Origin: Variovorax paradoxus
Lineage (GTDB): Bacteria; Pseudomonadota; Gammaproteobacteria; Burkholderiales; Burkholderiaceae_C
Direction of reading: 5' to 3'
NCBI RefSeq assembly: GCF_000834655.1
Contig: NZ_JXQQ01000038.1
Location: 1 to 64,000, forward strand
DNA: 64,000 nt
Shown here: positions 5,871 to 59,522 of the stretch, in pieces
How positions within the stretch are numbered: the stretch's first letter is position 1
Layout of the letters: every line of letters begins with the position of its first letter
Notes under the pieces: generated by a model
Database searches by the model: none
The model's input: the letters and a program-made list of their open reading frames with translations, nothing else
What the model was told of the DNA's origin: nothing
Program-made: the position numbers and the translations under genes

Positions 5871-5903
5871 AAGGGCCACCCGTTGCGGTGGCCCTTTTGT
5901 TTG
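5871..5903 (+). terminator. Rho-independent terminator after ilvC
   Basis: A 10-bp perfect stem, AAGGGCCACC / GGTGGCCCTT, with the loop CGTTGC, followed by TTGTTTG. It ends the ilvB-ilvH-DUF4282-ilvC unit and separates it from pssA. Confidence 0.85.
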
Positions 5904-6016: not shown

Positions 6017-6841
6017 ATGCATGACGACACGCTCCCCGACGATGTGCAGCCGCGCAAGCGTCGCAAGGGCATCTACATCCTGCCGAACCTGTTCACGCTG
6101 GCGGCGTTGTTCGGCGGCTTCTACTCGGTCGTGATGGCCATGAACGCGCGCTTCGACCTCGCGGCGCTCGGCGTGTTCGCCGCGATGATTCTCGACAGCC
6201 TGGACGGGCGCGTCGCGCGAATGACGAACACGCAAAGCGCTTTCGGCGAGCAGATGGATTCGTTGTCCGACATGGTGTCGTTCGGCGCTGCGCCGGCGCT
6301 CATCGCCTACGAATGGTCTCTCAAGGGCCTCGGCCGCTGGGGCTGGATCGCGGCCTTCGTCTACTGCGCCTGCGCGGCCCTGCGGCTTGCGCGCTTCAAC
6401 GTGAATACCGGCGTGGTCGACAAGCGCTGGTTCCAGGGGCTGCCGTCGCCCGCCGCAGCGGCGCTCGTGGCGGGCTTCATCTGGCTCGTGAACGAATGGG
6501 GCAAGCGCGGCGGTGAGGTGCTGTACCTCTCGTGGACGCAGATCACCTGGGTCACCTTCGCGTTCACGCTCTATGCGGGCCTCTCGATGGTGACGAACGC
6601 GCCGTTCTACAGCTTCAAGGACGTGCAGATGAAGAAGAGCGTGCCCTTTGTCGTGATCGTGCTCATCGCACTGGGCATCGCGGTCATCAACATCCATCCG
6701 CCAACGGTGCTGTTCGGCCTCTTCGTGGCTTACGGCTTGAGCGGTTATGTGGTCTATGCGTGGCGCAAGGCCAAGGGCCAGCCGGTCAGCGTGATCAGCA
6801 CCTCGACCGAAGAACCGGACGAGCGGGGCTTGCATAACTGA
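6017..6841 (+). CDS. pssA: CDP-diacylglycerol-serine O-phosphatidyltransferase
   Basis: A 274-residue integral membrane enzyme that makes phosphatidylserine from CDP-diacylglycerol and L-serine, the precursor of phosphatidylethanolamine. The CDP-alcohol phosphotransferase signature is complete at residues 63-85 (D63-G-x2-A-R ... G77 ... D81-x3-D85). About seven hydrophobic segments follow. The ATG at 6017 is chosen over 6002 because GGAGG (6004-6008) sits nine bases before it. The last 12 residues are polar. No gene overlaps it; the leuA leader region begins immediately after the stop. Confidence 0.95.
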   Translation: MHDDTLPDDVQPRKRRKGIYILPNLFTLAALFGGFYSVVMAMNARFDLAALGVFAAMILDSLDGRVARMTNTQSAFGEQMDSLSDMVSFGAAPALIAYEWSLKGLGRWGWIAAFVYCACAALRLARFNVNTGVVDKRWFQGLPSPAAAALVAGFIWLVNEWGKRGGEVLYLSWTQITWVTFAFTLYAGLSMVTNAPFYSFKDVQMKKSVPFVVIVLIALGIAVINIHPPTVLFGLFVAYGLSGYVVYAWRKAKGQPVSVISTSTEEPDERGLHN

Positions 6842-6860
6842 ATCTCGCTTGTGCTACATT
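6830..6860 (+). promoter_or_regulatory. Candidate promoter for the leuA leader
   Basis: TTGCAT (6830-6835) and TACATT (6855-6860) are separated by 19 bp; TG one base before the -10 box makes it an extended -10. The predicted transcription start is near 6867, so the leader peptide ATG at 6871 would be almost leaderless, which fits the absence of a Shine-Dalgarno before it. The promoter is predicted by eye. Confidence 0.4.
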
Positions 6861-6870
6861 CGCAACCCTC

Positions 6871-6927
6871 ATGACCAAGATTTCGCTGCTGGCCCTACTA
6901 GCCCTCCCTCACGGGCGGAGACGGTAG
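6871..6927 (+). CDS. leuA leader peptide (18 residues, Leu-rich)
   Basis: A short frame encoding MTKISLLALLALPHGRRR and ending in TAG. Five of 18 codons are leucine (CTG, CTG, CTA, CTA, CTC), including a CTA-CTA pair that stands out in a high-GC genome. The Leu codons are at 6886-6906. An intrinsic terminator lies 21 bases after the stop, and the leader bases 6911-6916 (ACGGGC) can pair with 6952-6957 (GCCCGT) inside the 5' arm of that terminator. This is the arrangement of ribosome-mediated attenuation: stalling at Leu codons would free 6911-6916 to block the terminator. The reading is structural; it is not a database match. Confidence 0.8.
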   Translation: MTKISLLALLALPHGRRR

Positions 6928-6948
6928 CGCACGCGCAAATCCCTCACC

Positions 6949-6985
6949 ACGGCCCGTTCGCACCAGCAACGGGCCGTTTGTTTTT
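6949..6985 (+). terminator. Attenuator (intrinsic terminator) before leuA
   Basis: The 10-bp stem ACGGCCCGTT (6949-6958) / AACGGGCCGT (6968-6977) has a 9-base loop and is followed by TTGTTTTT. It lies 41 bases before leuA and just after the Leu-rich leader peptide. Its 5' arm can alternatively pair with the leader coding region, so it should act as a leucine-controlled attenuator. Confidence 0.85.
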
Positions 6986-7026
6986 GGGGTTGCTGGTTGA
7001 TTACCAACCATCACAGAGAAATCGAC

Positions 7027-8730
7027 ATGCTCAAGCAACCTCAAGCCAAATACCGCGCATTCGCCCCGATCGGCCTCAAGGACCGCACCTGGCCCGATGC
7101 CGTGCTGACCAAGGCACCGATCTGGCTGTCGACCGACCTGCGCGATGGCAACCAGGCCTTGGTCGAACCCATGGACATCGCGCGCAAGATGCGCATGTTC
7201 GAGACCCTTGTGGCGATCGGCTTCAAGGAAATCGAAATCGGCTTCCCCTCCGCATCGCAGGTCGAATTCGACTTCGTTCGCAAGCTCATCGAGGAAGACC
7301 GCATTCCCGACGACGTGACGATCCAGGTGTTGACGCAGGCGCGCGACCACCTCATTGCCCGCACCTTCGAATCGCTGCAAGGCGCCCCGCGCGCCATCGT
7401 GCATCTCTACAACGCCGTCGCCCCGGTGATGCGCCGCGTGGTGCTCGGCATGGACGAGGACCAGATCGTCGAACTCGCCAGCAGCCACGCACGCATGTTC
7501 AACGACTTCGCCGCCAGGCAGCCGGCCACGAAGTGGACCTTCCAGTATTCGCCCGAGATGTTCTCGGGCACCGACGTTGTCTTCTCCAAGCGCGTGGTCG
7601 ATGCGGTCACCGAAGTCTGGGCGCCGACGCCCGAGCGCAAGTGCATCGTCAACCTGCCCACGACGGTCGAGCACTCAACGCCCAACATCTTTGCCGACAT
7701 GATCGAGTGGATGCATCGCAACCTGGCGCGTCGCGATTCCATCGTGTTGTGCGTGCATCCGCACAACGACCGCGGTACCGGCACAGCCGCCGGCGAACTG
7801 GCCTTGATGGCCGGCGCCGAGCGCATCGAGGGCTGCCTCTTCGGCAACGGCGAACGCACCGGCAATCTCGACCTCGTGAACGTCGCGCTCAACCTCTACA
7901 CGCAGGGCGTCTCGCCCGAGCTGGACTTCTCGAACATCGACGAGATCCGCGCGACGGTCGAGCACTGCAACCAGATCCCCGTGCATCCGCGCCATCCGTA
8001 CGTCGGCGAACTCGTGTACACCTCGTTCTCCGGCTCGCACCAGGACGCGATCAAGAAGGCCTTCGCCGCGCGCAAGGAAGGCGACATCTGGGACATGCCC
8101 TACCTCCCCATCGACCCGAAGGACGTGGGCCGCAGCTACGAGGCGGTGATCCGCGTGAACAGCCAGTCGGGCAAGGGCGGCATGGCCTACCTGCTCGAGA
8201 GCGAATACGGCCTCGAGATGCCGCGCCGCCTGCAGATGGAATTCATGCAGAGCGTGCAGCGCGTGATGGACATCGCCGGCAAGGAACTCACCGCGGCGGA
8301 CCTCTGGCAGCTCTTCGTGAGCGAATACGGCATCGAGACCGCGCAGTCGCTGCAGCATCGCGTGATCGAGGAAGAAGGCGAGGGCGCCAACGCCTCGGTC
8401 GTCCTGCGCGGCGATCTTCCGTGGGATGGTGAAACCCGTGCCATCGAAGGCCGCGGCAACGGCCCGATCGATGCCTTCACCCAGGCACTGAGCAAGGCCA
8501 CGGGCCACACCGTGCGCGTGATGGACTATCACCAGCACGCCATCGGCGCTGGAGCCGATGCGAAGTCGGTGGCCTACCTGGAACTGCGCGTGGACGAGAG
8601 CCAGACGCTGTTCGGCGTCGGCATCGACGCGAACGTGATCACGGCGTCGCTCAAGGCCATCGTCTCGGGCGTTCAACGGGCGCGGAGCCGGGGCGCGCAC
8701 AGCGCACAATCGGCGGTTGAAGTCGCCTGA
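7027..8730 (+). CDS. leuA: 2-isopropylmalate synthase, long class (type 2)
   Basis: A 567-residue enzyme condensing acetyl-CoA and 2-oxoisovalerate, the first committed step to leucine. The HMGL/TIM-barrel domain has the catalytic Arg in [15 protein letters not shown] and the metal His pair in [22 protein letters not shown] follows. The C-terminal LeuA dimer/allosteric domain begins around residue 430. The length and STDLRDGNQ signature place it in the long (actinobacterial and fungal-like) class. Start ATG 7027 fits the family start; the RBS (AGAGAA) is weak. It is preceded by a leucine attenuator and followed by a second leuA. Confidence 0.95.
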
Positions 8731-8749
8731 AGGCATGACCCCCGCGCTC

Positions 8750-8823
8750 CCGCACCGCGTGTCGTCGCAGCCCCCGAAGGGGGCCGCAGGCCGCCTTGGG
8801 AGCGGCCCGGCGTCGGCCTGATC
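8750..8823 (+). repeat. REP-like palindromic repeat between the two leuA genes
   Basis: The segment contains CCCCCGAAGGGGG (8772-8784), then GCCGCAGGCCGCC and CGGCCCGGCGTCGGCC. The same architecture, in the same order, is found at 12884-12955 inside bpt. It fills most of the 124-bp gap between the two 2-isopropylmalate synthase genes. Confidence 0.65.
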
Positions 8824-8854
8824 GACGGCTGAATAGAACCCAAGGAGATTCACG

Positions 8855-10393
8855 ATGGCTGACCAACTCATTATTTTCGACACCACCTTGCGCGACGGCG
8901 AGCAATCTCCCGGCGCCTCCATGACGCGCGACGAGAAGATGCGCATCGCCAAGCAGCTCGAGCGCCTGAAGGTCGATGTGATCGAGGCCGGTTTTCCGGC
9001 CAGCTCGAACGGCGACTTCGAGGCGGTCAAGGCGATCGCCAATGCGATCAAGGATTCGACCGTGTGCGGCCTGTCGCGCGCCAATGACCGCGATATCGCG
9101 CGTGCCGCAGAAGCCCTCAAAGGCGCGGCGCGCGGGCGAATCCACACGTTCATCGCGACTTCGCCGCTGCACATGGAAAAGAAGCTGCGCATGTCGCCTG
9201 ACGAGGTGCACGAGCAGGCCAAGCTCGCCGTGCGTTTTGCGCGCAACCTCGTGAGCGACGTGGAGTTCAGCCCCGAGGACGGCTACCGCAGCGACCCGGA
9301 CTTCCTGTGCCGCGTACTCGAAACCGTGATCGCCGAGGGCGCCACCACCATCAACGTGCCCGACACCGTCGGCTACGCCATCCCCGAGCTCTACGGCAAC
9401 TTCATCAAGATGTTGCGCGAGCGCGTTCCCAATAGCGACAAGGCGATCTGGTCCGTGCATTGCCACAATGACCTCGGCATGGCCGTGGCCAACTCGCTGG
9501 CCGGCGTGAAGATCGGCGGCGCGCGCCAGGTGGAGTGCACGATCAACGGCCTGGGCGAGCGCGCGGGCAACTGCTCGCTCGAAGAGGTGGTGATGGCGGT
9601 CAAGACCCGCCGCGACTACTTCGGGCTCGATCTGAACATCGACACCCAGCACATCGTGGCCGCGAGCCGCATGGTGAGCCAGACCACCGGCTTCGTGGTG
9701 CAGCCCAACAAGGCCGTGGTGGGCGCCAACGCATTCGCGCACGCATCGGGCATCCACCAGGACGGCGTGCTCAAGGCGCGCGACACCTACGAGATCATGC
9801 GGGCCGAGGACGTGGGCTGGGCCGCCAACAAGATCGTGCTGGGCAAGCTGAGCGGCCGCAACGCATTCAAGCAGCGGCTGCAGGAACTGGGCGTGACGAT
9901 GGCCGGCGAGGCCGACATCAATGCCGCTTTCCTGCGCTTCAAGGAACTGGCCGATCGCAAGTCCGAAATTTTTGACGAAGACATCCTCGCGCTCGTCAGC
10001 GCGGAAGAGTTGTCGAACGTTGACGAACAGTTTGCATTTGTCTCTCTTTCCCAGCACAGCGAAACCGGCGAGCGCCCCCAGGCGAAGGTCGTCTTCACCG
10101 TCCAGGGCAAGGAAGTGACCGGAGAATCCGAGGGCAATGGCCCGGTCGATGCTTCGCTGAAAGCCATCGAGTCGCACGTCAAGAGCGGGGCCGAGATGGT
10201 TCTTTACTCGGTGAACGCGATCAGCGGCTCGACAGAGAGCCAAGGTGAAGTTACAGTTCGGTTACAAAACGCAGGGCGGGTGGTCAACGGTGTGGGTGCA
10301 GACCCGGACATCGTGGTTGCTTCGGCAAAGGCTTATTTGAGTGCTCTCAATAAGTTACAGAGCCAATCTGAGAGAGTTGCAGCGCAAGGTTAG
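8855..10393 (+). CDS. leuA: 2-isopropylmalate synthase, short class (type 1)
   Basis: A 512-residue enzyme for the same reaction as its upstream neighbour but of the typical bacterial class. The catalytic-barrel start is [17 protein letters not shown], with [14 protein letters not shown] as metal-binding motif and [15 protein letters not shown]. The regulatory LeuA dimer domain covers about residues 370-510. AAGGAG (8841-8846) precedes the ATG. It is clearly divergent from the upstream gene and so is not a recent duplicate. Citramalate synthase is a less likely alternative because the sequence follows the leucine-type signature. Confidence 0.93.
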
Positions 10394-59219: not shown

Positions 59220-59299
59220 CCGTTTGCTCCAGTGCAAAAGGTTTGGCAGGTGGGCGAGGCTCCAGCGGCGCGGCCGTCACGCGAGACAACGCGACGGGC
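59220..59299 (-). promoter_or_regulatory. Riboswitch expression platform before cytX
   Basis: The 80 bases between the TPP aptamer and the cytX ATG hold GC-rich segments that could form a Shine-Dalgarno-sequestering hairpin. I cannot define the exact pairing; it could be translational control. Confidence 0.4.
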
Positions 59300-59392
59300 C
59301 GCCGGACCAGCTTCCCTGCGCGAGGATTACCTCAGTCAGGTTCAAAGGGACTTTCTCAGCCGGCCTGCGCAAACAGGCCAGCACCCCTAGCG
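59300..59392 (-). promoter_or_regulatory. TPP riboswitch (THI element) before cytX
   Basis: On the minus strand the conserved TPP aptamer is readable: GGGGTGC, GGCTGAGA (complement at 59354-59361), CCCTTTGAACCTGA (59336-59349), TAATCC (59325-59330) and GCGCAGGGAAG (59311-59321). It precedes the hydroxymethylpyrimidine transporter gene. Confidence 0.92.
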
Positions 59393-59522
59393 AGCGGCCA
59401 TTTTATGCGCTGCTTCGCCAGCGCAGGGAAAAGTGTCAGGCGTGCGACGGAAATCCGAAGTTCAGCGCCAGCGCCGGGAGCGACATCGCCGACGACGTCG
59501 TGAGCCCCAGGGTCAAGCTGGC

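Follow-up and report, generated by a model that had tools for sequence, protein, structure and literature searches.

What is the function of the interval between pssA and the first leuA gene in this window (the whole analysed stretch of 64,000 nucleotides), where it lies on the same strand as pssA, and how far does it follow the classical design of a leucine attenuator? A sequence-only reading of the DNA had proposed such an attenuator, with a Leu-rich leader peptide, before leuA, and the proposal is supported by the conserved anatomy of the region, the enrichment of CTA codons in the leaders and the recurrence of leuA downstream. The interval holds a Leu-run leader, a U-tract terminator before a structural gene, an antiterminator that competes for the 5' arm of this terminator and a biosynthetic gene downstream (Table 1). 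Classed by this anatomy, the stretch would be, with a probability of roughly 0.88, a ribosome-mediated transcription attenuator of the trp/his/leu type with charged leucyl-tRNA as its signal, and this switch very probably turns leuA on when leucine is short, as is known from E. coli.

Table 1. Coordinates, in the window, of the elements of the proposed attenuator and of the synthase genes behind it.
Feature	Position	Strand	Sequence and basis
Extended -10 promoter element	6850..6860	+	TGTGCTACATT; 9/9 defined positions match
Leader peptide ORF	6871..6927	+	MTKISLLALLALPHGRRR; ATG 6871, stop TAG 6925-6927, 18 codons
Predicted leader self-hairpin (segments 1:2)	about 6879..6941	+	fold; core CTACT 6895-6899 with GGTAG 6923-6927
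Antiterminator strand (segment 2)	6911..6916	+	ACGGGC; exact complement of GCCCGT 6952-6957
Intrinsic terminator	6949..6985	+	5' arm ACGGCCCGTT 6949-6958, loop 6959-6967, 3' arm AACGGGCCGT 6968-6977, T-run 6978-6985
Post-terminator pairing, 5' strand	6962..6970	+	ACCAGCAAC; terminator loop and first three nt of 3' arm
Post-terminator pairing, 3' strand (segment 5)	6989..6997	+	GTTGCTGGT; begins four nt past the T-run
2-isopropylmalate synthase type 2, regulated gene leuA	7027..8730	+	TIGR00970/NF002991, above curated cut-offs
Second 2-isopropylmalate synthase, type 1	8855..10393	+	TIGR00973, above curated cut-offs

The genes of the window are arranged in the order ilvB, ilvH, ilvC, pssA and two tandem 2-isopropylmalate synthases, ilvH being named from its position and from the ilvH RNA that precedes it in the same cluster (RF02993, 3855-3921, + strand, 86.1 bits). 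A consensus scan placed a strong terminator behind ilvC (5871-5896, + strand); hence, transcription of ilvBHC probably stops before pssA. A TPP riboswitch match at 59296-59398 on the - strand lies barely above its gathering score (55.1 versus 54.3 bits). The two synthases (7027-10393, + strand) are unlike each other and share one attenuator here, and many relatives carry the type-1 gene alone at this place. Among the best 80 of 304 relatives, the closest named LeuA proteins come from Variovorax (99% to V. boronicumulans), in agreement with the earlier attribution of the DNA to a Comamonadaceae-type genome.

We searched LeuA in 200 genomes of the GTDB family, which gave about 104 type-2 rows and 90 fetched upstream regions, and the same Leu-run leader with a GGCCCG-type terminator recurred in 72 of the 90; the Leu codons and the terminator are thus conserved upstream of leuA across the family, as the sequence-only reading had expected. 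The other 18 loci (L072-L087, L089, L090), with other leader types or none, were set aside, and 42 of the 72 kept loci served to build a covariance model, R1. This model, run with the stricter filters of Infernal, which may miss weak matches, and counted down to its weakest matches (E near 0.001), finds one match in the genome of the window itself, and matches 97 of 100 genomes of the genus (86/86 of the more complete ones) and 161 of 200 genomes, or 119 of the 141 genera sampled, of the family. In an order-wide sample it matched 16 of 399 genomes, namely 11 from the same family, 4 from one other family and 1 partially. Further R1 matches numbered 71 (60 fetched and 11 delivered as loci), and leuA follows just downstream in 69 of them: 65 have the TIGR00973-type (type-1) gene directly behind a leader of the same kind and 4 have a type-2 gene, so that the switch appears to precede whichever leuA comes first. 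The two matches without leuA are one partial match and one leader of aromatic appearance; L136, L137 and L175 were dropped from the 71 before the 140-locus counts given below.

Several single loci deserve separate mention. In L138, a short stretch between the leader and type-1 leuA resembles the beginning of a type-2 leuA (MLKQPVLKHP), perhaps the remnant of a lost gene. In L137 (G020:C27:31728-31932), a similarly built leader carries a run of aromatic residues, MQARRHASFYFWFRSPGGSEARA, and is followed by a terminator; the downstream ORF presumably encodes a protein resembling DAHP synthase. The attenuator design may therefore, judging from L137, be usable for other amino acids. A third leader form (...LGLVPGRGLPAF...) stands before more distant type-2 leuA paralogues in L081, L083-L087, L089 and L090, and L083 and loci like it show a 10-base complement, GGCCGGGGTC with GACCCCGGCC, and no clear U-tract terminator.

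The leader of the window indeed has the claimed 18 codons with five Leu codons (CTG CTG CTA CTA CTC, with CTA-CTA at 6895-6900). Two leader forms prevail among relatives, ...SLALLLxPxGRRR and ...LLLLGEPRVR, and the median Leu fraction of 140 leaders is 0.235. CTA makes up 323 of the 626 Leu codons in these leaders, which, like those of the -10 counts below, were picked by a script and may have a wrong start in a few loci, versus 0 of 192 in the six coding sequences of this window, a background that represents one genome. By these codon counts, the rarity of CTA marks it as the control codon of the leader. CTA is the control codon of the E. coli and Salmonella leu leaders as well. The two CTA codons of the window (6895 and 6898) sit 16 and 13 nt 5' of the antiterminator strand, a distance that across loci mostly falls between 9 and 25 nt.

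No Shine-Dalgarno-like purine run was found 5' of 6871, and the sequence-only reading had suspected an almost leaderless ATG. This suspicion fits the position of the extended -10 element (TGTGCTANANT), which is present with at least 7 of 9 matching positions in 66 of 72 loci, with 6-8 nt separating it from the ATG of the leader in 58 of 72 and 10 nt in the window. Counting +1 about 7 nt past the -10 element, a gap of 6-8 nt would let the RNA begin at the ATG or no more than 2 nt from it, and the gap in the window would give a 5' leader of 3-4 nt. Hence, we infer from the -10 position that the leader mRNA is leaderless or nearly so. A simple promoter and terminator consensus scan returned no sigma-70 promoter at this stretch and did not list the terminator. 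Elsewhere in the same genome, one other match to this -10 ahead of a leaderless start was seen, at the start of a regulator-like ORF.

The intrinsic terminator and T-run before leuA read as had been described, and 93.5% of the terminator cells are paired in alignment A1 (42 class I sequences); the region 6866-6995 folds with a z of -2.44, and 3 of 200 shuffles fold equally well. The 5' arm of the terminator constitutes segment 3, in which 6952-6957 pairs with 6911-6916, and the 3' arm constitutes segment 4. This 6-bp alternative pairing, also put forward earlier, is exact in the window and is paired in 97.2% of cells in A1, in 94.4% in A3 (51 type-1 sequences, drawn from 68 set-B loci after exclusion of 17 long or class-II-like ones) and in 85.2% in A2 (30 sequences of class II), an alignment in which the pairing was extended by one pair on one side; at one position of A2 the pair is A-U in 13 sequences and G-C in 5. 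The expectation that the pairing would be conserved was borne out, but the covariation expected with it is weak, with one double change each in A1 and A3, because the pairing is nearly invariant. In a swap test, it scored 16.27 against a permutation maximum of 16.19 (5,000 permutations), a slight margin, and the script did not find it in 5 of 140 loci (L027, L048, L056, L061 and L184). In folded nascent RNA that ends ahead of the 3' arm, the probability of the antiterminator has a median of 0.94 and exceeds 0.5 in 92.6% of loci (n=135).

A further pairing joins the terminator loop and the beginning of its 3' arm to a segment past the T-run. In class I, 90.7% of its cells are paired, with 19 double-change cells versus 5.3 in shuffles; at one pair, A-U is replaced by G-C in 12 sequences, and the same A-to-G change converts a terminator U-A pair to U-G in them. 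Type-1 loci are paired in 75.2% of cells, with 33 double-change cells versus 7.1 in shuffles. Class II is paired in 79.0% of cells; its double changes do not rise above shuffles (6 versus 4.0, reached by 107 of 500), and its covariation score is reached in 6 of 500 shuffles. When partners were swapped among 140 loci, strands scored 20.4 with their own partner and 15.0 with swapped ones, and none of 10,000 permutations (maximum 16.2) reached the observed value; the test leaves relatedness in, and the signal appears in each set (A, 22.0 versus a maximum of 18.5; B, 18.8 versus a maximum of 16.1). Taken singly, the pairing is significant (p <0.05) in 107 of the 140 loci and not in 33, and a helix of at least 6 pairs was not found in 15 of 140. 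Fifty-seven other terminators from the same loci, used as a control, do not show it as a group (12.1 versus 11.6 shuffled; 5/57 at p <0.05), and 28 attenuator-like terminators score 21.6 versus 12.1 shuffled by the same measure (23/28 at p <0.05). Comparative evidence thus argues that in most members the post-terminator strands do pair, at variable spacing. Relative to the classical attenuator description, what is new, as read from these alignments, is an additional conserved RNA pairing that involves sequence immediately beyond the terminator. The sequence-only view of a single pairing in place of a four-segment design is not supported, given a predicted leader hairpin (of weak covariation) and this further conserved segment past the T-run.

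Could the region be explained in a simpler way? Lying directly 3' of pssA on the same strand, the terminator might be an ordinary pssA terminator next to a chance Leu-rich ORF, a reading that hardly merits belief in view of a leader, CTA codons and pairings kept across the family, and of the leuA gene behind 69 of the 71 further matches. More weight is due to a two-state attenuator, in which antiterminator and terminator compete in the absence of a leader hairpin, so that an untranslated leader would let transcription read through into leuA. It would account for the fuller leader hairpin of one member being 78.0% paired on A1 with covariation below that of shuffles, and for A3 (51 type-1 sequences) yielding no predicted leader helix. 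Folding points the other way: the probability of the antiterminator has a median of 0.95 with a stalled ribosome versus 0.018 on the bare leader (n=120), and bare native leaders lower it more than codon-shuffled upstream sequences do in 98 of 120 cases (mean 0.245 versus 0.599). Moreover, the core pairs (CTACT/GGTAG and CCC/GGG) are paired in 97.6% of cells in the 42 sequences of A1, the alignment from which this structure was itself derived. We consider the two-state attenuator unlikely. Given the folding support, together with the absent covariation of the fuller hairpin, we regard it as likely that, as modelled, the 1:2 leader hairpin hides the antiterminator strand when the ribosome is absent.

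The pairing past the T-run has to be weighed in the same manner. Operators can be inverted repeats near the promoter-proximal region, and the repeat could in principle be bound as DNA by a regulator protein rather than pair as RNA. This idea was rejected on the variable spacing and the sequence variety: the strands are 14 to 42 nt apart and the 106 loci with a strong helix hold 60 distinct 5' strands, which favours RNA over a DNA operator. G-U pairs also occur in the pairing and one strand always lies within the terminator loop and 3' arm, and we regard the operator as very improbable. Somewhat better placed, though still improbable, is a translational layer that loosely recalls the LEU element of Actinobacteria: while the terminator is folded, the post-terminator segment would pair with the first leuA codons and hide the start. 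Such a pairing can be drawn in the window between TGGGGTTGCT and AGCAACCTCA (leuA codons 3-6). Among type-2 loci, the match to codons 1-10 is better than in swaps (0/5,000) and shuffles, but it is weaker within subclasses (17 and 233 of 5,000), where relatedness may explain part of it, and type-1 loci score below both swaps and shuffles. Pairing of the segment with leuA codons was consequently rejected as a general mechanism, since type-1 loci lack such a match. As to what the pairing does, the geometry sets a limit: the segment lies 3' of the U-tract and is absent from the RNA when termination is decided, and can therefore act on read-through RNA only. We tentatively suggest, at somewhat less than even odds, that it is a fifth working segment, in which the loop and 3' arm pair beyond the T-run after read-through, as a hairpin, or as a pseudoknot with the terminator folded; leuA would thereby come under a second control after the transcription decision, exerted on translation initiation, on decay of the mRNA or by trapping the antiterminated fold, and governed by the ribosome on the same leader. 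In forced folds (n=101), the leuA start region came out slightly less paired with the antiterminator and the extra pairing (unpaired 0.58) than with the terminator folded (unpaired 0.50; Wilcoxon p 8e-10). Combining the antiterminator with the post-terminator pairing costs about 9.8 kcal/mol in stability relative to the terminator fold; hence, the switch must be kinetic, and a 'holding' role is doubtful at equilibrium. In large-loop loci, a pseudoknot of the post-terminator segment with the folded terminator is possible.

Returning to the leucine attenuator with a leader hairpin, we propose that transcription would start at the leader ATG or a few nt 5' of it, as the promoter position suggests, and that the (nearly) leaderless RNA would be translated. 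If, as in established attenuation, the ribosome stalled at the rare CTA codons (6895/6898) when leucine is short, it would break the leader self-hairpin and free ACGGGC, 13-16 nt downstream. This strand, whose pairing with the terminator 5' arm is conserved, is predicted to pair with it before the 3' arm is made, and polymerase would continue into leuA. With ample leucine, the ribosome would reach the TAG and cover ACGGGC, and the terminator would form; with no ribosome, the leader would fold on itself and the terminator would presumably form as well. In read-through RNA, the freed loop and 3' arm could then pair with the segment past the T-run, a pairing to which covariation testifies, and this would most likely hold the antiterminated fold and leave the leuA start region somewhat more open.

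How does this element relate to known systems? With the leu attenuator of E. coli and Salmonella (leuL; PMC6123439), as described in the excerpted part of that source, it has in common the leader with Leu codons, the terminator, the alternative pairing and leuA downstream; it differs in a leader of 18 codons (28 aa in leuL), in a near-leaderless start and in having a segment past the T-run whose partner is the terminator loop. The Rfam 15 covariance models, those of the enterobacterial leucine leader and the T-box among them, give no match in 6800-7100 up to E 10, and none here at gathering scores, so the region is not detectably the enterobacterial leucine leader RNA. S. meliloti trpL (PMC7298713) likewise has a leader RNA that starts at or near the ATG and attenuation that yields a short terminated RNA, but it responds to tryptophan rather than leucine, and the excerpts of that paper do not mention a post-terminator pairing. 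The LEU element of Actinobacteria (PMC1262725) likewise precedes leuA and has in common a leader with a run of Leu codons as well as alternative RNA structures, one of them a pseudoknot. By the excerpted description, which is given without a terminator, the Leu codons there pair with the leuA Shine-Dalgarno, whereas here an intrinsic terminator is present and the Leu codons are predicted to pair with the stop region of the leader itself. Anti-antiterminator, antiterminator and terminator hairpins, the first of them predicted here, are also described for ilvBNC of C. glutamicum (PMC11857589), a different gene in a different phylum, with no post-terminator segment mentioned in the excerpted text. 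In the open-access literature we found no leuA attenuator described for this family; subscription papers were mostly outside this scope, and a related prediction may be found in Vitreschak et al. (2004).

This version of the attenuator is present in 119 of the 141 sampled genera of one large family, yet has neither an Rfam match nor a description that we could find. Its near-leaderless leader would offer a compact natural case for asking how a ribosome initiates on leaderless RNA early enough to govern a terminator. The post-terminator pairing appears to have been maintained by evolution in at least 60 sequence forms, and if it works, the textbook view that nothing past the U-tract matters would miss a part of the switch.
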